Part shown: piece by piece, positions 2,870-29,645 of the stretch
How positions within the stretch are numbered: position 1 is the first letter of the stretch
Layout: the number at the start of each line of letters is the position of its first letter
Origin: Acidobacteriota bacterium
GTDB lineage: Bacteria; Acidobacteriota; UBA6911
Direction: 5' to 3'
Assembly: GCA_016933615.1 (NCBI GenBank)
Contig: JAFGAO010000286.1
Coordinates: 1 to 35,565, forward strand
Length of the DNA stretch: 35,565 nucleotides
Program-made: the position numbers and the translations under genes
Notes under the pieces: model-generated
What the model saw: the letters and a program-made list of their open reading frames with translations, nothing else
What the model was told of the DNA's origin: nothing
The model's database searches: none

Positions 2870-4417
2870 TTATTCCCCCGGAGGCGCGCAGGTGAAATTG
2901 GCGGCGTCGTTGATGTCGCCGCTCCCTTTATACCTCGGAAGATCGGGATAGGCGCACACCGGGCGCGTGCGGTAGACTTTTCCACCCCTGCCTGAGTCCG
3001 TTTGGCCGTAAATGATCCGATCCGGAGCCTTGCCCTCTTCCACCCACTCCTGCAATGCTTCAAACGCCTTGAAGTTCTCGCCGACAACGCAGCCGCCCGC
3101 TCCCGGTATGGAGAAAAGCCGGGCGAAATCCCGCGTCCGCTCGGCCCCCCCCATAGCCTTTTCCACGCTTCTGTAATATTCAGCGACCTGCCTCGGCGGC
3201 AGCGCCAGGCTGTTCCAGGACGAAACGATAATGAGCTTGCCGTTGGATTCCTTAAAGGGCCTTAGATCGGGATTGTTGCCGTCGACGTATTTGGCCGTGC
3301 GTTCTATGCCCAGCTTCGTGTCGCGGTCCGCGTCGAATGTGCGCCAGTCCCAGTCGGGATCCTCAAAAACCATGCCCTTGAAATAGTTGAGATTCACCGA
3401 GAAGGGCTCCTTCTCTATCATGAAGCTCCAGGTGAGTTCGCTTCCGGGTTCGAATCCGCTGTATATCGGAGTCCCGTCTTTGAACCTGGCCCCGGCGTAT
3501 ATCTTTCTCGCCGTCTGAACCTGGCCCGCGGTCAGGCAGGAAGGCTCGTCCGGGCCGGCGCACTGGATAGTCGCCGGGTCGAAATCGCAGTGCGGAGGAT
3601 CTGTGATGAGTCCATCGTCAAGACCGTCATTCATATCGCACGCATCCAGGGCCGCCCGGTTTATCACTGCAAGCTTTTCAGTCGGGATATACCCGGGGCC
3701 TTCGACGCCGTCTTTGAGCGCAACCCAGCTGATGTAAAGGGAGCCCGGCTGCAGGCGCGTTATCCAGAATGCGGGGTCGCTGGCAACGATCCCGTCGAAA
3801 TCGTCCGGGTAGCGCTGGGCCTCGTTCAGCCCCTGGTTGCCGCCGTTGTGGCAGCTGTTCCAATAGGAATATTGAATCGGCCTGCCGTAATATTTCTCCG
3901 CCAGTATCTTGGTCGCAACAACCATTTCATGAACCGCGCGATGGCCCCAGTCCGCCCATTTTTCCGGGTGGCCGACGGCCCACTCGAAACCCGCGTCCAC
4001 GTGGCCCGTATCGGTTCCGGCCGCCACATACCCTCTTTCCATGATTCCCGCGAGTCCGGCGCTGTTGAGGGATCCTATGAATCCGGGATTGCCGGCAGCC
4101 AGAAATTTCCCGTTCCAGCCGGCAGCCGCCGGAAGCCACACCTCGATGCCGATGCGGGAGTCGGCGCTCGGAGCCGAAAAAGCCTCTATCCTGCAGAAAG
4201 GCGCCTGGATTTTTCTTGCGGGCAGCTCGCCCGTGGCGCCGGCCTGGCCGGGCAATTCATAGCCCGGACCGCCGGAGGTGACGGACGTGATGGTGACGTT
4301 GGGGATCTCGAGCGACTTCAGGCTTTCGCAGGTCTGCTGAGCCGCGGCGGGGATGGAAACGAAAGCGAAGCCGGCCAGAAGAAAGAAACCGATATCCGGT
4401 ACTTTACGATGATTCAT
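2870..4417 (-). CDS. Tannase/feruloyl esterase-family protein lacking the catalytic triad
   Basis: A 515-residue secreted protein with an N-terminal signal peptide ending near AAAQQ, belonging to the tannase/feruloyl-esterase family (MHETase and tannase relatives). Family landmarks are present: GTDTGH, EAQRYPDDFDGI and WVEEGKAP. The three catalytic residues appear substituted. The nucleophile motif C-S-x-G-G reads CHNGG (Ser to His), the acid motif GWADP reads SWNSL (Asp to Ser), and PGxGHC reads PGAGGC (His to Gly). The two cysteines that form the disulfide next to the triad are both kept. The frame is intact, so this looks like a retained pseudoenzyme or binding protein rather than a decayed gene. 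The ATG at 4417 has GGAGG just upstream. It lies 136 bp downstream of the UroD-family gene on the same strand, so co-transcription is possible. Confidence 0.85.
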   Translation of the reverse strand: MNHRKVPDIGFFLLAGFAFVSIPAAAQQTCESLKSLEIPNVTITSVTSGGPGYELPGQAGATGELPARKIQAPFCRIEAFSAPSADSRIGIEVWLPAAAGWNGKFLAAGNPGFIGSLNSAGLAGIMERGYVAAGTDTGHVDAGFEWAVGHPEKWADWGHRAVHEMVVATKILAEKYYGRPIQYSYWNSCHNGGNQGLNEAQRYPDDFDGIVASDPAFWITRLQPGSLYISWVALKDGVEGPGYIPTEKLAVINRAALDACDMNDGLDDGLITDPPHCDFDPATIQCAGPDEPSCLTAGQVQTARKIYAGARFKDGTPIYSGFEPGSELTWSFMIEKEPFSVNLNYFKGMVFEDPDWDWRTFDADRDTKLGIERTAKYVDGNNPDLRPFKESNGKLIIVSSWNSLALPPRQVAEYYRSVEKAMGGAERTRDFARLFSIPGAGGCVVGENFKAFEALQEWVEEGKAPDRIIYGQTDSGRGGKVYRTRPVCAYPDLPRYKGSGDINDAANFTCAPPGE

Positions 4418-4458
4418 ATGCGCGCCTCCGGGAAGAACCTGTTTCCGATGATCGTTGA

Positions 4459-4553: not shown

Positions 4554-5825
4554 TCAGTCGTACCTGCCGCGGCTTTTGGTGATGTCTATCATGGCCTTCA
4601 CGTTTTCCGGCCGGGCTTCGTCCAGGGCCGTGGCCGACATGATAAAACCTCCGTCTTTGCCGCACATCCGGATCAGGTTTTTGCAGTAGTCTTCGACCTC
4701 GGAAACGGCGCCGGCCTGCAGGATGAAGCCGGGGACGTCCAACATGAAGCAGAGGTGCCCTCCCAGAACCGCCTTGGCCTTTTCCGGATCGGTCTTGGCA
4801 AAATGGCAAAGGACTTTGCCCCGGGGCAGTTCCAGAAGGTATTCAAGCCGCCGGTCCCATGTTCCCTCGAAAAACGGGCACGGCGTCCATCCGGCCTCGA
4901 TCAGGGCCAGCAGCACTTTCTTCAGCGTCGGCCAGTAGAACGTCTCGAACTGCGGCAGGGACATGAAACCGTCCGACCCCCTGTGAAGGGCCAGGAAAAC
5001 CCTTCGGACGCTCCCTTCCGCCGGAGCGGGCAGATTCTTTATCATGGCAACGGTCTGTTTGCAGAGCATATCGCAGGTTTCCAGAAGCTTGTCCGGAACC
5101 CGGTACATGTCCAGCATGGAGCCGCGCATGCCGCGCAGGAAATCGGAAATCATGTCGAAGGGCGCCCCGGCCATCATCCTGGAAGTCGTGTAGCAAGGGA
5201 ATCCAAGCCCGGACATCTCCTCATCGAAGCCGACATCCCGGCTCTGCCACTCCGCCTGCAGCTGGGCCGCTCTGCGGAATTTTTCGAGCATTTCCGCCAT
5301 ATCCGGCATGGTGAAGCGCGCCAGGTAGGGAGCCATGCCCATGGCGAATATAAGCGACTGGAAGGGGGGCAGCTTGGCCATGGGCGCGGCGGATTCCAGC
5401 ACCCGCGGCAGATAGGCGCGCAGTATAAAATCCGACGGGTCGCTGAGAAAGGCGTCGTAATCTTCCGGCTTCATGGGCTCCAGCTCGATCATCTGGTGGC
5501 TGTGGTCCGGAGACACGCCGAAACCGGGCCACCTCATTTGACGCGGCCCGAGGATCTCCATCGCTTCCCCGGAAAACCCCGCGGTCTGGGCCCAGTAAAC
5601 ATCGGGCTCGAGCTCCGTGATTGTCCTGAGGTTTGCCGCCCTCCATTTTTCGGCATCGTAATAGGCGGCCGAACAGGGAATGCCGCAATACCTGGCCGCG
5701 AAGTAGCCGACCCAGAGCTGGAAAGGCACCCGGTCGGGCACCTTCATCGCGATGGCTTCGTTTACCCTCTTATCCCTTTCGGCGTATGCCTGCGCAGCGC
5801 CGCCTGCAGATGTCGCGTTGGTCAT
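4554..5825 (-). CDS. Uroporphyrinogen decarboxylase (UroD)-family protein
   Basis: About 423 residues of the UroD fold, in the sub-branch that includes corrinoid-dependent methyltransferases and many uncharacterised proteins rather than true HemE. The C-terminal signature GGFIM...RPENVKAMID is typical of the UroD methyltransferase branch. No signal peptide is seen, so it is cytoplasmic. The ORF is open to 5885, but the ATG at 5825 has GGAGGG about nine bases upstream and is the better start. Such proteins often move methyl groups to or from cobalamin proteins, for example in demethylation of methoxylated aromatics, but no corrinoid protein or activator is nearby, so the substrate is unknown. 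A relic of a paralogous C-terminus lies near 14.05 kb. Confidence 0.85.
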   Translation of the reverse strand: MTNATSAGGAAQAYAERDKRVNEAIAMKVPDRVPFQLWVGYFAARYCGIPCSAAYYDAEKWRAANLRTITELEPDVYWAQTAGFSGEAMEILGPRQMRWPGFGVSPDHSHQMIELEPMKPEDYDAFLSDPSDFILRAYLPRVLESAAPMAKLPPFQSLIFAMGMAPYLARFTMPDMAEMLEKFRRAAQLQAEWQSRDVGFDEEMSGLGFPCYTTSRMMAGAPFDMISDFLRGMRGSMLDMYRVPDKLLETCDMLCKQTVAMIKNLPAPAEGSVRRVFLALHRGSDGFMSLPQFETFYWPTLKKVLLALIEAGWTPCPFFEGTWDRRLEYLLELPRGKVLCHFAKTDPEKAKAVLGGHLCFMLDVPGFILQAGAVSEVEDYCKNLIRMCGKDGGFIMSATALDEARPENVKAMIDITKSRGRYD

Positions 5826-6012
5826 GTTTGGAAACCCTCCGAATTCTCCGTCCGCTCGTGCAATCTTTTTAGAAAGGCCCGACATTATGGTCCGGCATGC
5901 CTAACGGCGCAATGGGAAACAGTTTTCCGGAAATCCCGCACCGTCAAGCAGGTCCGCGCCGCACGCCGGCACAATGGTTTTTCAGTTTAATTCAATTTGA
6001 GGGCATAAAGAA

Positions 6013-6161: not shown

Positions 6162-8560
<2,399 letters not shown>

Positions 8561-11003: not shown

Positions 11004-11810
11004 ATGCCTGGAAGCAAAAAAACCGATAAAGAAGCCGCTGCCAAGAAGAAATTCTCGAGACGCGATTTCATCGCCACCGGCGGAGCCGTAGTCGCTGTGG
11101 ACGCCCTGATCTCCACGACTAAAAGCGATGCCTTTGCGGCGCCCGCGTCTCCGGCAATGGCCGCAAATGAGTATCCCGCATCCAAGGGATACCTTGTTTA
11201 TGACAGCAAGAAGTGCGCCGGTTGTACAACCTGCATGCTCGCTTGTTCCCTGGTGCACTACGGAGTCCAAAACCTGTCCCTCTCGCGCATTCAGATCATG
11301 CAGGACTCCTTCGGCAAGTTTCCCGACGACGTCAAGATGGCGCCCTGCCGGCAGTGCGTAACGCCGCCCTGCGTGATCAATTGCCCGGTTGGAGCCGCAT
11401 ACATCGATACGGAAAACGGCAACGTCCGCAGAATCGATTCCGAAAAATGCATCGGCTGCAAGACCTGCCTCGCCATGTGTCCCCAGCAGCCGCACCGGAC
11501 GGTCTGGAATCACACCATCAACAAGGCCACCAAATGCGACCTGTGCATCGACACGCCCTACTGGAATGAAACCGGCGGCGTCAACGGGAAGCAGGCCTGC
11601 GTGGAATCCTGCCCCATGAAGGCCATTAAATTCGTATCCAAGCCTCCGGACCAGAAAGAAACGGAAGGCTACGACGTGAACATGCGCAACGATTTCTGGT
11701 ACAACCTCGGGCTGGTTGAAAACTCGACGCACGTTCCCCCCGCTTACAGCATGGCCGGACGGAAGCCCGGCGCTGCCAAGGCTAAACCGAAACCGAAGGC
11801 AAAGGAATAG
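11004..11810 (+). CDS. Tat-signal ferredoxin-like electron-transfer subunit of the AOR-family enzyme
   Basis: A 268-residue protein with a Tat signal (SRRDFIATGG) and a DmsB/YdhY-like poly-[4Fe-4S] body. Clusters are marked by CAGCTTCMLAC, CRQC...CVINCPVGA, CIGCKTCLAMCP and CDLC...CVESCP, enough for four [4Fe-4S] centres. The C-terminus is a Lys/Pro/Ala tail (about KAKPKPKAKE). It ends ten bases before the ATG of the AOR-family gene, so the two are translated together and probably form a two-subunit enzyme, as in E. coli YdhY-YdhV. The Tat signal suggests export or membrane tethering, perhaps carrying the signal-less large subunit. The ribosome site AAGGAG is seven bases upstream of the ATG. 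Confidence 0.88.
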   Translation: MPGSKKTDKEAAAKKKFSRRDFIATGGAVVAVDALISTTKSDAFAAPASPAMAANEYPASKGYLVYDSKKCAGCTTCMLACSLVHYGVQNLSLSRIQIMQDSFGKFPDDVKMAPCRQCVTPPCVINCPVGAAYIDTENGNVRRIDSEKCIGCKTCLAMCPQQPHRTVWNHTINKATKCDLCIDTPYWNETGGVNGKQACVESCPMKAIKFVSKPPDQKETEGYDVNMRNDFWYNLGLVENSTHVPPAYSMAGRKPGAAKAKPKPKAKE

Positions 11811-11820
11811 GAGGATGATC

Positions 11821-13932
11821 ATGAAAGGTGGATATACAGGAAAGATTTTATTCGTAAACCTGACCGACAAATCGATCAGCACTATTCCGACTGAGAAGTA
11901 TGTGGATTTCGGCGGCGGTCACGGCATCGGTTCAGCCGTTTTCTTCGACCTAGTGGGGGATCAGCTGCCGTTTGACGCCTTCGACCCGAGAAACCTCATC
12001 CTTATGATAAACAGCCCGTTTTCCGGCACGTTCATGCCGGGCTCGGGACGATGCGAGGTGCAGGGTCTGGCCCCGGGGCTTTACCCGATTGAATGGTTCG
12101 GCCACAGCAACTTCGGAGGCCGGTTCACGGCTCAGCTGAAGTTTGCAGGCTGGGACGGGATCGTGGTGCAGGGCAAGGCTGAGAATCCCGTATGGATCAA
12201 CATCGTCGACGACAAGGTCAAAATCGAGGATGCCAACGGTGTGTGGGGCATGGATACCTGGGACACCCAGCAGGAAATTTCCAGGCGCGTCGTCCCCAGC
12301 CTCAAACACGGCGAATGGGCCGAACTTTCCAACAGCTGCTATACCACGCAGGTCCCGGCGGTCGTCTGCTGCGGCCCGGCCGGAGAGAATCTGTGCCGCG
12401 TCGCGTGCCTGCTTCACGGCGCCGGCTCCCAGGCCGCGCTGGGCGGGTACGGGGCTCTGTTCGGGTCGAAAAACCTGAAGGCGATCAGCGCGCTCGGAAC
12501 CGGCGGCGTACCCATCGCCGATCCGAAGGCGTTCATGGACGCCCGGCTCTGGTTCCGCCAGTTCCAGTGGGACGTCGACAATCCGCGCGAACCTGAAAAG
12601 TTTGCCCAGCGCGGCTACAGCCTGATCAACGGCGCCCCGAGCGGCGGCAATGTCAGCAACGGCAGCGTGCCCCTAGTACCGGCGCGCGCGGCCGCCTGCG
12701 CCTCCTGCCCCAGGGGATGCCGCATGCGGCTGGCCAGCGGCGACAGCAATGAATCGGTCTGCGCCGGGTCGATGTTCGCCCGGATCGGAAGCGGCGGATT
12801 CATGGCCATGGGCGGCGGCGGCGGCGCAAGCGCCAGCAAGATGCCCGCCATCCTCAACGGGAAGCTGACCCGCCAGGCCAACGATCTGATGCACAAATAC
12901 GGCCTGGGGCACTGGCAGCTGATGGCGACATCCGGCTACATCCAGCACCTTCACAGGCAGGGCGTCATCGGAGAGGGGAAAGAGTATGAATGCAACCTGC
13001 CGTTCGACCAGGCCAACACCTACGCCTATCACGAGGCCCTTTACAGGCTGCTTTCGGCGCGCGAAGGGAAATTCGGGGATATGGCCGCGGAAGCCGCAGC
13101 CAGACTGGCGGAAAAGCTCGGCCGCTACGACCAGGATGTAAACAGCGGCGCGCTGCGGCTGAGCTACTGGGGCACCCAGGAGCACTACTCCTCCCAGGTG
13201 GAAGTGGAATGGGGCTTCGGTTCCATCCTCGGAGAAAGGGACCTGATGCTGCACATGATGGCCAACTATCCGCTGCACTGGATGGCCTCGTCCGGCAACC
13301 CCTATCTCACCGCCGAAGAAGCTTCCAAGCTCTACGCCGAGGCGATGGTTCCCTACCAGGACGACCGCTACCTTGTGGACTACGGCGAAGGGCCGACCGG
13401 AGTCTATTCCGACTCCAAGGTCAAACAGGTCGCGTGGACCAAACACTATGAAAAATTCTGGATCGGAGCCGGAGGATTCTGCGGCTGGCGCTGGCCCATG
13501 TGCATCACCAACAACACGGCCGACCGACGGGGCGCGACTCCGCAAGCCGAGCCCAAGTTCTGGAACGCCATCACGGGCGACAACAAAACCTTCGCCGACT
13601 ACATGGAACTCGGGCACAAGATCTACACGCTCGACCGTTCCATCTGGGTCCTGCAGGGCCGCCACCGCAACATGGAAGTTTTCCCGGACTACGTTTACGA
13701 TCAACCCGGAAGAGGCGGCAGCGAAATGCCCATGGTGATAGACGGCAAGTGGGTTTACGACGCGGGCCAGGGCCGGGCGATCGACCGCGCCAAGATGGAG
13801 GATTTCAAATCCAGGTTCTACAAATTCGAAGGGTACAATCCCGATAACGGCTACCCGACGCGGGCTACTCTCGAGAATATGAACCTGAAGAAAGTGGCCG
13901 ACGCTCTGGAAAAACAGGGCAAGCTGGGATAA
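11821..13932 (+). CDS. Aldehyde:ferredoxin oxidoreductase-family enzyme (YdhV-like)
   Basis: A 703-residue tungsto/molybdo-bis-pterin enzyme of the AOR family. N-terminal MKGGYTGKILFVNL and the AOR_N barrel are followed by the [4Fe-4S] motif CASCPRGC (Cys293, 296, 300) and a distal Cys in GGFCGWRWPM. The C-terminal half (KFWNAITGD, NGYPTRATLENM) resembles E. coli YdhV more closely, as I recall it, than archaeal AOR or BamB. The length also matches YdhV (about 700). It probably oxidises an aldehyde or reduces a carboxylate or similar group, with electrons passing to the upstream Fe-S subunit; the substrate is unknown. The ORF is open from 11716, but the AGGAG at 11809-11813 selects the ATG at 11821 (11815 is the alternative). 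A terminator follows. Confidence 0.92.
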   Translation: MKGGYTGKILFVNLTDKSISTIPTEKYVDFGGGHGIGSAVFFDLVGDQLPFDAFDPRNLILMINSPFSGTFMPGSGRCEVQGLAPGLYPIEWFGHSNFGGRFTAQLKFAGWDGIVVQGKAENPVWINIVDDKVKIEDANGVWGMDTWDTQQEISRRVVPSLKHGEWAELSNSCYTTQVPAVVCCGPAGENLCRVACLLHGAGSQAALGGYGALFGSKNLKAISALGTGGVPIADPKAFMDARLWFRQFQWDVDNPREPEKFAQRGYSLINGAPSGGNVSNGSVPLVPARAAACASCPRGCRMRLASGDSNESVCAGSMFARIGSGGFMAMGGGGGASASKMPAILNGKLTRQANDLMHKYGLGHWQLMATSGYIQHLHRQGVIGEGKEYECNLPFDQANTYAYHEALYRLLSAREGKFGDMAAEAAARLAEKLGRYDQDVNSGALRLSYWGTQEHYSSQVEVEWGFGSILGERDLMLHMMANYPLHWMASSGNPYLTAEEASKLYAEAMVPYQDDRYLVDYGEGPTGVYSDSKVKQVAWTKHYEKFWIGAGGFCGWRWPMCITNNTADRRGATPQAEPKFWNAITGDNKTFADYMELGHKIYTLDRSIWVLQGRHRNMEVFPDYVYDQPGRGGSEMPMVIDGKWVYDAGQGRAIDRAKMEDFKSRFYKFEGYNPDNGYPTRATLENMNLKKVADALEKQGKLG

Positions 13933-24673: not shown

Positions 24674-27526
24674 GTGAAGAAGGATCGCTGGACACTGATT
24701 ATCCGCTCCTGGCTGGGCCTTGCCGCCGCCGCCGTCGCCGTTGCGGCTTCGGTCTGGATACTTTCGTTTTACATCCATGCGCGAATCGTCGATCCCGGCA
24801 ATGCCGCGAGAATCGAGGCGCTCAAGGAGAAGGCGAAGACCGATCCGGAAGTCCAGGAGATTCTCCAGCCCGACCTGGAAAAACAGTACCAGGATCTGAA
24901 AAAGCGGCGCTTCGCCTATGACCTGGGGGGAGCGGTCCTGCTGATTTCGGCCGGTGTGTTTTTCGCCTGGTTCCGCTGGCTTCGTCCCGGCCCCGGTGAC
25001 TGGACCGGCATCCCCGCCGGATGGATGCCTTATCTGGCTTCCCGTGTGGATACGGCGGCCCGCCCGCTGCCGGCTGTCTTGAGGAAACCGCCGCCTGAAT
25101 CCGGCAGTGCCGCCGCGGCATCGGCTGCGCCCGCAGAGGATTGGGTTTCGCCGGCTCCTGTCGAGGGCGGCGCCCTGGACCTCGGCGCCGTGGACGCGAT
25201 TCTGGAAGCCGAGGGAAACAGCCCGGAAGCGGTCATTCCCATCCTGCAGGCAATCCAGTCCCACTACCGCTACCTTCCGGACCAAGCCCTGCGCGCCGTG
25301 TGCCAAAAAGGCGGCATATCCGCCTCGCAGATCGCCGGGGTTTCCACTTTCTACACCCAGTTCCGGCACAAACCTGTCGGGAAGCACATCATCCGCGTGT
25401 GCGAGGGAACGGCCTGCCACGTGTCCGGAGCTGCTGAGATTGGCAACGAGCTGCGGCGACGCCTGAAAATACCGGACGGTTCCGATACCGATCCCTCCGG
25501 GCAATTCACCCTCGAACGCGTCGCCTGCATCGGCTCCTGCAGCCTGGCGCCGGTTATCACCATTGATGAAAATATCTACGGCCACATGAGCGCTCTCTCG
25601 GCGGGAGGAACCGTCCGGGATTTCCTCCGGTCCGCGGACTCCTCCGCGTCCGGCGGCGACGGCAAACCCGGCAAAAGGGCGCAAAGCAGGCAACCGAAAG
25701 AGCCGGTTCCGCCGCCCGTCGAAATCCGCATCGGGATGGGATCCTGCGGCGTGGCCAGCGGCGCCCGCGAGATCCGCGCGGCGCTCCTCGACCAGGTCGC
25801 GCTGCTGGGAGGCGCCGCCGAGATCAAGTCGGTCGGATGCAGGGGCATGTGCCACCACGAGCCCCTGGTCGAGATCGTCGGCGGCGGCGGAAGCACTCTT
25901 TACGGCAACGTCCAGCCGGCGGATGTCCGGAAAATCATACGGGAACATGTCAGGCCCCGTAGCCTCCCGACGAGAATCCATCAAGGCTTCCGGGATGCCC
26001 GCGCGCGCCTCGTCGACGACAGCGCCTGGAAGCCGGCGGCGCAGCGGCGGGTCGATGCAACGCCCTATACCCGGAAACAGAAGCATGTCGTCCTTGAAAA
26101 CTGCGGCATTATCGATCCCCTATCCCTGGAGGACTACCGGCGCCGCGACGGGATCCGGGCCCTGCAAGAGTGCCTGAAAAACCTGTCGCCGGAAGAGGTC
26201 ATAGGAAAAATCAGGATGTCGGGCCTGAGAGGAAGGGGCGGCGCGGGATTCCCGACCGCGGTTAAATGGGACGTCACACGCCGCGCGCCGGGACCGGTCA
26301 AGTACGTCATCTGCAACGGCGACGAAGGCGATCCCGGCGCCTTCATGGATCGCGCCGTGCTGGAAGCGGACCCGTTCCGCGTCATCGAGGGTCTTGTCAT
26401 CGCGGCCTACGCCGTCGGGGCGTCGGAAGGATTCATCTACGTAAGGCGGGAGTACCCCATCGCGGCCTTTCATCTGCGCGAGGCGGTCCAGACCGCCGCC
26501 GCCCGAGGACTTCTGGGCAAAAACATACTGGGAACCTCCTTCGATTTCAAACTTCATATCCGCGAGGGCGCGGGCGCGTTCGTCTGCGGCGAGGAAACGG
26601 CCCTCATACAATCCCTGGAAGGCAAAAGGGGGATGCCGCGGCCCAAACCGCCCTACCCCGCCCAATCCGGCCTTTGGGGCAAACCGACGCTGATCAACAA
26701 CGTGGAGACCCTGGCCTGCGTGCCCTGGATCGTGCGCCGCGGGGCCGAGGCGTTCGCCGCGCTGGGGACCGAAAAATCCAAGGGAACCAAGGTTTTTTCT
26801 CTTGCAGGCAAGATAAACCGGGGCGGGCTCATCGAAGTTCCCATGGGAATCACCATCCGCGAAATCGTCGAAGACATCGGCGGAGGCATAAAAGGCGGGC
26901 GCGCGTTTAAAGCGGTCCTCACCGGCGGCCCCTCGGGCGGGTGCATCCCGGCCCGCCTCGCGGACACGCGGATCGACTTCGAGGAGCTGACGGCGATGGG
27001 CGCCATCATGGGATCCGGAGGCCTCGTCGTTCTCGACGACCGGGACTGCATGGTCGATATCGCCCGCTACTTTCTGCGCTTCACCCAGGACGAATCCTGC
27101 GGCAAATGCACTTTCTGCCGCATAGGCACCAAAAGGATGCTGGAAATACTGGAAAGGATCTGCGAGGGCCAGGGCAAAGAAGGCGATATTGAAAACCTGG
27201 AGAGCCTGGGCAACGAAATCAAAAAGGCGAGCCTGTGCGGGCTGGGACAGACGGCGCCCAATCCCGTTCTGACGACGATCCGTTTTTTCAGGGAAGAGTA
27301 CGAGGCCCACGTCCGGGAGCGGCGCTGCCCGGCCGCCCATTGCAAGGCCTTGATCCGTTTCCGCATCCTGGACAACTGCACGGGCTGCACGCTCTGCGCC
27401 CAGGCATGCCCGGCCGGAGCCATCGCAGCGCGCCCCTACGAAAAACACGAAGTGGACGACGCTCTCTGCACCCGCTGCGGCATGTGCATCGAGGCCTGCC
27501 CGGAAAACGCCGTGGAGGCCGGGTAA
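24674..27526 (+). CDS. Membrane-tethered NuoE-NuoF fusion (possible electron-bifurcating NADH module)
   Basis: About 950 residues. Two transmembrane segments (near 10-30 and 80-100) flank a charged loop predicted as periplasmic. Then comes a NuoE-like [2Fe-2S] domain (C243 in CEGTAC, later CIGSC), and a second thioredoxin-like [2Fe-2S] unit (GSCGVASG, CRGMCHHEP) as in HydB/NuoF of bifurcating enzymes. The NuoF FMN/NADH core follows (RGRGGAGFPT near 517, GDEGDPGAF), then SLBB, the N3-type [4Fe-4S] (CGKCTFCR near 808), and a C-terminal 2x[4Fe-4S] ferredoxin domain (CTGCTLCAQACP, CTRCGMCIEACP). Positive charges by TM2 place the catalytic part in the cytoplasm. The GTG at 24674 has GAGGAG upstream; the ORF's TTG start does not. 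Fusion of E and F plus a membrane anchor is unusual. Confidence 0.92.
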   Translation: MKKDRWTLIIRSWLGLAAAAVAVAASVWILSFYIHARIVDPGNAARIEALKEKAKTDPEVQEILQPDLEKQYQDLKKRRFAYDLGGAVLLISAGVFFAWFRWLRPGPGDWTGIPAGWMPYLASRVDTAARPLPAVLRKPPPESGSAAAASAAPAEDWVSPAPVEGGALDLGAVDAILEAEGNSPEAVIPILQAIQSHYRYLPDQALRAVCQKGGISASQIAGVSTFYTQFRHKPVGKHIIRVCEGTACHVSGAAEIGNELRRRLKIPDGSDTDPSGQFTLERVACIGSCSLAPVITIDENIYGHMSALSAGGTVRDFLRSADSSASGGDGKPGKRAQSRQPKEPVPPPVEIRIGMGSCGVASGAREIRAALLDQVALLGGAAEIKSVGCRGMCHHEPLVEIVGGGGSTLYGNVQPADVRKIIREHVRPRSLPTRIHQGFRDARARLVDDSAWKPAAQRRVDATPYTRKQKHVVLENCGIIDPLSLEDYRRRDGIRALQECLKNLSPEEVIGKIRMSGLRGRGGAGFPTAVKWDVTRRAPGPVKYVICNGDEGDPGAFMDRAVLEADPFRVIEGLVIAAYAVGASEGFIYVRREYPIAAFHLREAVQTAAARGLLGKNILGTSFDFKLHIREGAGAFVCGEETALIQSLEGKRGMPRPKPPYPAQSGLWGKPTLINNVETLACVPWIVRRGAEAFAALGTEKSKGTKVFSLAGKINRGGLIEVPMGITIREIVEDIGGGIKGGRAFKAVLTGGPSGGCIPARLADTRIDFEELTAMGAIMGSGGLVVLDDRDCMVDIARYFLRFTQDESCGKCTFCRIGTKRMLEILERICEGQGKEGDIENLESLGNEIKKASLCGLGQTAPNPVLTTIRFFREEYEAHVRERRCPAAHCKALIRFRILDNCTGCTLCAQACPAGAIAARPYEKHEVDDALCTRCGMCIEACPENAVEAG

Positions 27527-27581
27527 TATTCATGAAGGACGGAAACTGCGGCGCCGTTTCCGGTCAGGCGAAGAATTGAAT

Positions 27582-29645
27582 ATGGTGACGCTGACAATCG
27601 ACGGACGGAAGATTTCGGTCAAAGAAGGGACGACGATTCTCGATGCCGCGGTTTTGCTGGGAATCCGCATTCCCACGCTCTGCAAGGTGGAGAACTTCCC
27701 CCCCTCGGCATCCTGCTTCCTGTGCGCCGTCAAGATCGAAGGACGGAAAAACCTGGCGCCCTCCTGCGCGACGCCGGCCGAGGACGGCATGATCGTCCAC
27801 ACCGATTCGGACGAGGTGCGCGCCTCCCGCAAAACATCTCTCGAGCTGCTGCTGTCCGATCATGTGGGGGATTGCATCGGGCCCTGCCGCACCGGATGCC
27901 CGGCCGTTCTGGACATCCCGGGATTCGTCACCGGAATCGCCGGCGGGGATTTCCGGCGCGCGGCCGAGATCGCCCTGGACTACCTGACGGTCCCGGCTTC
28001 GCTGGGCCGCATCTGCCCGCGCCTGTGCGAGCAGCGCTGCCACCGCTGCGAAACGGGCGAGCCCCTTTCCATAAGGAACCTCCACAGGCTGGCCGCGGAC
28101 CGGGACCTGAAATCGGAATCCCGGTATATCCCGAGAAAAGAAAAGGCCACCGGAAAGAAAGTGGCCGTTGTCGGCACCGGGCCCGCCGGCCTCAGCGCCG
28201 CGCACCACCTGCTGCGGCGCGGCCACCGGGTGGTCCTTTTCGATTCCCGCTCCGCTCCCGGGGGAATGCTCCGCTGGGCCATTCCGGCGTTCCGCCTGCC
28301 GAGGGAAGTCCTGAAACTGGAAATAGACGTTATACGGAAGCTGGGGGCCGAGTTCAGGCTGAACACGAAACTGGGCGCGGACATGACCCTGGACGACCTG
28401 CGCCGCGATTACGACGCCGTGTTTCTTGCCATAGGCGCGCAGGGCTCCAAAAGCCTGGGCTGCCGGGGAGAAGAGCATGCCGTCCCGGCCCTGGACTTCC
28501 TGGGAGAAGTCGCCGAAGGGCGCCGCCCGGAAATCGGGCGCGATGTCCTGATACTGGGAGGGGGCAATACGGCCATGGACGCATCCCGAACGGCCGTCCG
28601 CCTGGGCGCGCGCGGCGTGAAGGTGCTCTACCGCCGGTCGCGCCGTGAAATGCCCTGCCTCATGTCCGAAGTGGAGGCGGCGGAAGAGGAAGGCGTCGGC
28701 CTGGAAACGCTGGTGGCCCCCGTGGAACTCTCACGCGGGGAAAACGGGAAACTGCGGCTCGTCTGCCGCCGCATGGAACTAGGGAAACCCGACCAGAGCG
28801 GCCGCGCGCGGCCCGTTCCCGTCCCGGGCTCCGAGTTCACGCTGGAAGCGGATATGGTGATCGCGGCCATCGGGCAATCGGTGGAATCCGAATCCCTGCG
28901 GGCGAAGGATCTTTCCCTGACCGGCTGGGGGATCGAGGCCCGGCTTTCGACCCTGGCGACCAGCATCGAGGGAGTCTTCGCGGGCGGAGACGCCGTAACG
29001 GGCGCGGACCTTGCCGTCCGCGCCGTAGCCGCGGGAAAGCTGGCGGCGGTTTCGATCGACCAGTATCTGAACGGCCGGCCGGTTCAAGGGGATCCCGACA
29101 TGATCACGGTTCTCATGGGGAAAATGGGCGAGGAGGAGCTCGCGGCATTCTTCCGCAACATCGAGGAGACCCCGCGGGCGCCTATGCCCGAGGTCCCGGC
29201 CGAAGAGCGCGTCAACGATTTCAGGGAAGTCGAGATCGGGTTTTCCGAGGAGACGGCGGTCCGCGAGGCGGAACGCTGCATGGGCTGCGGCTGCGCAAAA
29301 GCCGACACCTGCAGGCTACGGCAGTACGCGACCGAATACGGCGCGGATCCCCTGAGGTTTTCCGGGGCCAGGCGCCGGTTTCAGAGGGATCTCACACACC
29401 CGGAGATCATCTACGAACCGGGCAAGTGCATCCTGTGCGGCGCCTGCGTCGCGGCGGCCGCTGAAGCCGGCTCGGGGCTGGGGCTCGCGATCGTGGGCAG
29501 GGGATTCGATGCCGCCGTGGCGGTCCCGCTCAAAGGAACCATGATCGAGGCCCTGCCCGAGGCGGCGCGCAGGGTGGCCGAAGTATGCCCGACCGGGGCC
29601 TTCTCGCTGAGATCCTCCTGCCTCTGCAAAATGATCAGAAATTAA
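27582..29645 (+). CDS. GltD/NfnB-like flavoprotein with N-terminal [2Fe-2S] domain
   Basis: About 687 residues. An N-terminal [2Fe-2S] ferredoxin domain as in NuoG/HydA (PTLCKVENF...CFLCAV...SCATP) leads to a GltD/NfnB-type region with Cys motifs (CIGPCRTGCP, CPRLCEQRCHRC), an FAD Rossmann motif (VVGTGPAGLSAA) and a pyridine-nucleotide motif (ILGGGNTAMDASRTA). C-terminal Cys motifs (CMGCGCAKADTC, CILCGAC, and a later CPTGAF) can ligate further clusters. This is the subunit type that in Sporomusa-type Nfn (StnC) couples NADP(H) to the NuoEF-like partner. It starts about 55 bp after the NuoEF gene. The ATG at 27582 is preferred over the ORF's TTG. Its stop overlaps the convergent CocE gene. Confidence 0.9.
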   Translation: MVTLTIDGRKISVKEGTTILDAAVLLGIRIPTLCKVENFPPSASCFLCAVKIEGRKNLAPSCATPAEDGMIVHTDSDEVRASRKTSLELLLSDHVGDCIGPCRTGCPAVLDIPGFVTGIAGGDFRRAAEIALDYLTVPASLGRICPRLCEQRCHRCETGEPLSIRNLHRLAADRDLKSESRYIPRKEKATGKKVAVVGTGPAGLSAAHHLLRRGHRVVLFDSRSAPGGMLRWAIPAFRLPREVLKLEIDVIRKLGAEFRLNTKLGADMTLDDLRRDYDAVFLAIGAQGSKSLGCRGEEHAVPALDFLGEVAEGRRPEIGRDVLILGGGNTAMDASRTAVRLGARGVKVLYRRSRREMPCLMSEVEAAEEEGVGLETLVAPVELSRGENGKLRLVCRRMELGKPDQSGRARPVPVPGSEFTLEADMVIAAIGQSVESESLRAKDLSLTGWGIEARLSTLATSIEGVFAGGDAVTGADLAVRAVAAGKLAAVSIDQYLNGRPVQGDPDMITVLMGKMGEEELAAFFRNIEETPRAPMPEVPAEERVNDFREVEIGFSEETAVREAERCMGCGCAKADTCRLRQYATEYGADPLRFSGARRRFQRDLTHPEIIYEPGKCILCGACVAAAAEAGSGLGLAIVGRGFDAAVAVPLKGTMIEALPEAARRVAEVCPTGAFSLRSSCLCKMIRN

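Follow-up and report, generated by a model that had tools for sequence, protein, structure and literature searches.

Introduction

The closest described relatives of the protein analysed here are the feruloyl esterases FaeB of Aspergillus oryzae (6g21, 3wmt) and FoFaeC of Fusarium oxysporum (6fat, 8bhh, 9hun), together with MHETase of Ideonella sakaiensis (6qz3 and others), a member of the same family whose catalytic residues are Ser225, Asp492 and His528 and whose active site is braced by the disulfide Cys224-Cys529 (PMC7568301). Ten cysteines forming five disulfides are the rule in the tannase family, and at one position of the oxyanion loop Gly is found in 91% of 6,671 family sequences; MHETase has Ser131 there, a residue that matters for substrate fit (PMC7568301). 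The wider alpha/beta-hydrolase fold tolerates catalytic residues that are missing or have moved: the acid lies on strand beta6 in many groups, where it is an accepted alternative site, some lyases use an acid-His dyad without a Ser, and CGI-58 lacks the Ser (PMC11878206). The elbow nucleophiles included in the same survey are Ser, Asp and Cys, and His is not among them. In plants, an inactive companion serine carboxypeptidase-like acyltransferase is reported for Camellia, a triad-lost member of a serine-hydrolase family kept beside active paralogues (PMC11886809). Our literature search, in which few subscription journals were covered, returned no description of a triad-less tannase clade or of a tannase pseudoenzyme.

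Results

A tannase-fold protein with an intact frame and a probable export signal

The gene under study lies at positions 2870..4417 on the minus strand of the window, by which we mean the whole 35,565-nucleotide stretch that was analysed, and encodes a tannase-fold protein of 515 aa that belongs to what we term the CHNGG clade. The single open frame of 515 codons was confirmed together with its coordinates and strand, and the two signals that the preliminary description had attached to it were both found. A ribosome-binding site, GGAGG (4425..4429, minus strand), is visible in the sequence 7 nt ahead of the ATG, and the N-terminus, MNHRKVPDIGFFLLAGFAFVSIPAAAQQ-TCE..., has by inspection the appearance of a Sec-type signal peptide, probably spanning residues 1 to about 27 and ending ...IPAAAQ (4337..4417, minus strand); N-termini of the same type are also present in clade relatives. 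The Pfam Tannase profile PF07519 matched with E = 3.1e-96 and 323.6 bits against a cut-off of 29.8, and the match is near full length (residues 85-511 on profile positions 14-490 of 490). Feruloyl esterases of known structure also matched by sequence, 6g21 over its whole length with an E value of 1.1e-63. The AlphaFold2 monomer (pLDDT 91.7, pTM 0.90) has the alpha/beta hydrolase core with a large lid, and the best Foldseek matches in the PDB were FaeB/FaeC-type feruloyl esterases (TM 0.86-0.88; 0.88 to 6g21) followed by MHETase. In this model a strand runs from 183 to 189, a helix starts at 190 and a further strand covers 209-215; since the first strand ends at 189 and the helix begins directly after it, the nucleophile elbow is intact.

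Replacement of the active-site residues

Alignment with the solved feruloyl esterases and MHETase placed the motif NSCHNGG of the window protein on CSxGG, SSWNSL on GWADP and IPGAGGC on PGMGHC. The MHETase residues Ser225, Asp492 and His528 thus correspond to His190, Ser403 and Gly442, which upheld the initial claim that the catalytic Ser, Asp and His had all been replaced. His190 (3848..3850; this and the residue coordinates that follow are all on the minus strand) stands at the nucleophile-elbow position and was His in 28/28 clade members versus Ser in 61/61 comparison tannases. Ser403 (3209..3211) stands at the position of the catalytic Asp. The loss of this Asp had originally been read from SWNSL, and the Asp is indeed gone, but the residue that replaces it is Ser403, while the Asn sits one place before; Asn402 was therefore rejected as the replacement, and Asn at this position also occurs in ordinary tannases. 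In addition, it is in the window protein and the subclade around it (subclade A) that the acid is lost, whereas the sister subclade (subclade B) and the basal members carry Glu there. At the catalytic-His position, Gly442 (3092..3094) is Gly in subclade A and Met in subclade B, and His was absent from all 27 clade members that cover it.

A fourth change, missed in the preliminary description, is the substitution of Gly by Pro at residue 111 (4085..4087) in the oxyanion loop, a position that corresponds to Ser131 of MHETase and Gly122 of FoFaeC and that is invariant within the clade (28/28 Pro versus 61/61 Gly in ordinary tannases). We considered and rejected the idea that Pro111 abolishes the oxyanion NH itself: it occupies the neighbouring specificity position, and because the MHETase oxyanion residue Gly132 aligns with Gly112, Pro111 does not remove that NH. 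The clade retains Gly or Ala at residue 112.

The disulfide cysteines and fold motifs had been said to be kept, and they were. The window protein has exactly ten Cys, each at a family disulfide position; among them are Cys189 (3851..3853), at the active site, and its partner by homology Cys443 (3089..3091), which lies beside the lost His and was Cys in 27/27 members where covered. This pair corresponds to the disulfide Cys224-Cys529 of MHETase. The calcium-type motif of the lid, residues 260-277, CDMNDGLDDGLITDPPHC (3587..3640), retains the family Cys and Asp residues, and D261, D264 and D268 are invariant in 28/28 clade members. The window protein is therefore like FaeB and FoFaeC in its predicted fold (TM about 0.88), in its lid and in its disulfide cysteines, but differs from them in having His190 for Ser, Ser403 for Asp, Gly442 for His and Pro111 for the oxyanion-loop Gly. 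A Ser-Asp-His triad shifted to other residues was looked for and none was found: the protein appears to be without a free Cys, the only Ser conserved in 27-28 of the 28 clade members are residues 87 and 326, which are family-wide and form no part of the active-site motifs, and position 442 no longer carries His. Given the ten Cys at disulfide positions and the lack of a conserved Ser in the active-site motifs, no hidden nucleophile would be expected. Since the elbow Ser, the catalytic Asp, the catalytic His and the oxyanion-loop Gly were each sought and all four were absent, the window protein belongs to PF07519 by profile and fold but falls outside the CS-D-HC serine esterases. Catalysis of the canonical serine-esterase kind is very unlikely, and with the three MHETase catalytic residues replaced and Pro in place of Ser131, acyl-enzyme chemistry is not expected.

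Asp214 (3776..3778), which lies towards the end of strand beta6 and immediately ahead of the lid, was Asp in 27/28 clade members versus Ala in 54/61 tannases. It falls inside strand 209-215 of the model, near the strand end, and from strand order and adjacency it may contact His190. As a clade invention Asp214 is a weak candidate, given that Asp is also found in 7/61 ordinary tannases.

Distribution and phylogeny of the clade

Searches of related genomes and of a species-genome collection yielded a clade of 28 distinct members from 15 genomes, in which identity to the window protein is 48-83% for the remaining sequences; 61 tannases formed the comparison set. By the organism labels of the record titles these genomes fall into three differently labelled lineages: 9 of the 10 species of the window's genus, 3 of 17 genomes of one Deltaproteobacteria-labelled family, and 2 of 53 of one Gammaproteobacteria-labelled family together with one further Gammaproteobacteria-labelled genome. 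The remaining sampled genomes of the window's phylum (396 searched) and of the Deltaproteobacteria-labelled phylum (392) gave no match at clade-level score. The sequences come mostly from metagenome bins, several of them (the Zodletone series) from one site, so that misbinning may account for part of the apparent transfer between lineages, although two Gammaproteobacteria-labelled clade loci lie on contigs of 218 kb and 305 kb.

In a maximum-likelihood tree of 24 members from which the trait columns had been removed, the clade was monophyletic with support 100/100. The combination of His190 and Pro111 was found in 28/28 members and in 0/61 comparison tannases, a contrast greater than chance would give, so that the replacement sought in relatives was indeed shared, although positions 403 and 442 vary between subclades. 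Subclade A, which contains the window protein, has Ser403/Gly442, subclade B has Glu403/Met442, and basal members likewise have Glu and Met. Across the clade, position 403 is Ser in 14 members, Glu in 13 and Gly in 1, and position 442 is Gly in 15 and Met in 12 of the 27 that cover it; by entropy they rank 245 and 265 of 486, more variable than about half of all positions. Trp146, Trp157, Gln223, Gly237 and Asp314 are further clade-specific invariant residues, and Asp214 is absent in one member. The simplest reading of the tree shape is that the clade first acquired His for Ser, Glu for Asp, Met for His and Pro for Gly, and that positions 403 and 442 relaxed later in subclade A.

The window genome, a 3.6 Mb bin (G000), has seven family matches, namely the window gene, another clade protein (L002), four Ser-elbow proteins (L001, L003, L004 and L006) and a C-terminal fragment (L007). 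The second clade protein, encoded on contig C253 (locus L153, 2412-3950, minus strand), belongs to subclade B and carries the motifs CHNGG, SWNETW and PDMGMC, with Glu at the acid position and Met at the base position. Copies of both subclades co-occur in several genomes. At another locus (L149:9126-12277, plus strand) two clade genes follow an FAD-linked oxidase gene as a tandem pair with 32 bp between them; the product of the first has CHEGG and AWEES, so that Asn191 and Asn402 are both changed to Glu, and the same pair of changes occurs in L132.

Selection on the clade

In close pairs, dN/dS was 0.08-0.17 within the clade, equivalent to the 0.12-0.22 of active-type paralogues, by the NG86 method, which is crude at high divergence. 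The clade values amount to ordinary purifying selection. His190 is encoded by both CAC and CAT and Pro111 by all four Pro codons; given these synonymous changes at both sites, it is the amino acids that selection maintains. The normal triad is missing from close relatives too, which show the same change, and this sharing, together with the purifying selection, supports the earlier suggestion that selection had kept a changed protein. The family's ancestral catalytic residues have been lost from a gene under purifying selection, as in a pseudoenzyme. Recent decay was accordingly rejected. A decaying gene or an assembly artefact has the missing catalytic residues as its sole point in favour, and set against 28 distinct open frames in 15 genomes, the low dN/dS and the frozen His190 and Pro111, its probability is negligible. 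Because the His-centred replacement pocket is unchanged across the subfamily, this is a maintained protein with a changed job and not a dying gene.

Gene neighbourhoods

No operon partner was conserved across the clade loci compared, and the neighbours differ between lineages. The neighbours that recur in several genomes are catabolic or redox genes, with the qualification that the neighbour probes were picked from clade loci and their counts are biased accordingly. An iron-sulfur protein and an aldehyde:ferredoxin oxidoreductase-like protein (AFOR) are encoded immediately upstream of the clade gene in L040, a cytochrome lies 30 bp downstream of a subclade B protein in L147, and an FAD-linked oxidase is upstream of the tandem genes in L149. 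Near other clade genes lie a family III CoA-transferase and malic enzyme (L150), a 3-hydroxyacyl-CoA dehydrogenase and a LigB-like protein (L079), and an SDR (L083 and L084).

In two Deltaproteobacteria-labelled genomes, a run composed of an SMP-30-like protein, an 8-CXXCH cytochrome and a twin-arginine-type aldo/keto reductase is followed by the clade protein (L148:6576-14139, minus strand; L151:2-5322, plus strand), and in the former an AFOR precedes the run. This mostly exported redox run looks like an undescribed periplasmic pathway.

Possible functions

The data showed that in an exported tannase-fold subfamily of single origin the serine-esterase machinery disappeared a single time, and that the subfamily has maintained ever since another pocket under equal constraint, comprising His190, Pro111, Asp214 (27/28) and new invariant Trp and Gln residues. 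The reading that we tentatively put first, at somewhat under even chances, is that a phenolic pocket has been repurposed, with His190 as a non-covalent base or acid and Asp214 as its possible partner. The lid would still close over a phenolic or aromatic ligand, but a serine acyl-enzyme would be impossible; the phenolic nature of the ligand is suggested by the family and by the neighbouring genes. His190, at the helix start, would probably lie beside Asp214 of the neighbouring strand and, in the sister subclade, near Glu403, and it would serve as general base or acid in, for example, a lyase, isomerase, hydratase or decarboxylation step, in the periplasmic section of a catabolic or respiratory pathway for plant phenolics. 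A Glu403-His190 dyad is possible only in subclade B and the basal members. A bolder version, less likely than not, is that the subfamily consists of tannase-fold enzymes in which a His has taken over the elbow and, together with a beta6 carboxylate, runs a reaction other than serine-type ester hydrolysis on plant phenolics; such an active-site layout is absent from the superfamily survey (PMC11878206). The clade shares its fold with the non-standard alpha/beta hydrolases discussed above, but none of those described in the survey has His at the elbow (PMC11878206).

Nearly as likely as a His190 base or acid, though still short of an even chance, is a non-catalytic binding protein, which would serve in the periplasm or outside the cell as a receptor for phenolic acids or esters or as their carrier, and in which His190 and Pro111 would shape the pocket or hydrogen-bond the ligand. 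Such a role is in keeping with the joint loss of nucleophile, acid and base, with the Pro in the oxyanion loop, with the retained lid, calcium-type motif and disulfide cysteines and with the signal-peptide-like N-termini, and the drift at acid position 403 and base position 442 is as compatible with a binding site as with an enzyme. In a pure scaffold, however, there would be no need for an invariant imidazole where the fold is most reactive, and in several genomes the genes lie among catabolic enzymes. The clade proteins might instead be companion subunits that pair with an active tannase paralogue, or A with B, and tune stability or specificity. Ordinary-triad paralogues are indeed present in the window genome and in other clade-bearing genomes, the A and B copies co-occur in several genomes, and two clade genes form a tandem pair 32 bp apart (L149); the Camellia companion, a plant enzyme of another family, offers a precedent by analogy (PMC11886809). 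At most loci, however, no active tannase is adjacent, and the window protein is confidently modelled as a monomer. This role is unlikely. Less probable again is ester hydrolysis by another route, with His190 as nucleophile or as base for direct attack by water and one oxyanion NH left to assist: the overall fold is retained and Gly112 aligns with the MHETase oxyanion residue Gly132 (PMC7568301), but the clade conserves no partner base and no beta7 acid, and the superfamily survey lists no alpha/beta hydrolase with a His nucleophile (PMC11878206).

A family profile will name the clade proteins tannase or feruloyl esterase, despite their inability to use that mechanism. If they are catalytic, their elbow residue lies beyond the Ser, Asp and Cys variants of the survey (PMC11878206). 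If they are non-catalytic, they form, to our knowledge, the first conserved pseudoenzyme clade in the tannase/MHETase family. The clade also provides a natural series of single origin, leading from active tannases through an inferred His190/Glu403/Met442 state to Ser403/Gly442, in which the loss of the triad and the fixation of a new pocket in a serine hydrolase can be followed.

Other genes in the window

The clade gene adjoins a gene for a URO-D family protein (4554-5885, minus strand; a weak match, E 4e-9), a relative of which is also found near the clade gene in L082. This is followed, on the strand of the clade gene, by a peroxidase of 736 aa with two PF00141 stretches (6162-8372, minus strand), in a genome rich in iron-sulfur and ferredoxin chemistry. 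About 7 kb from the clade gene, an iron-sulfur protein (11004-11810, plus strand) and an AFOR (11815-13932, plus strand) form the same kind of pair as in L040. Further along, at 24674-29645 on the plus strand, a NuoE/NuoF-like iron-sulfur flavoprotein of 950 aa is followed by a 2Fe-2S/4Fe-4S pyridine nucleotide-disulfide oxidoreductase, and the two resemble an electron-bifurcating or NAD(P)H:ferredoxin-like module.
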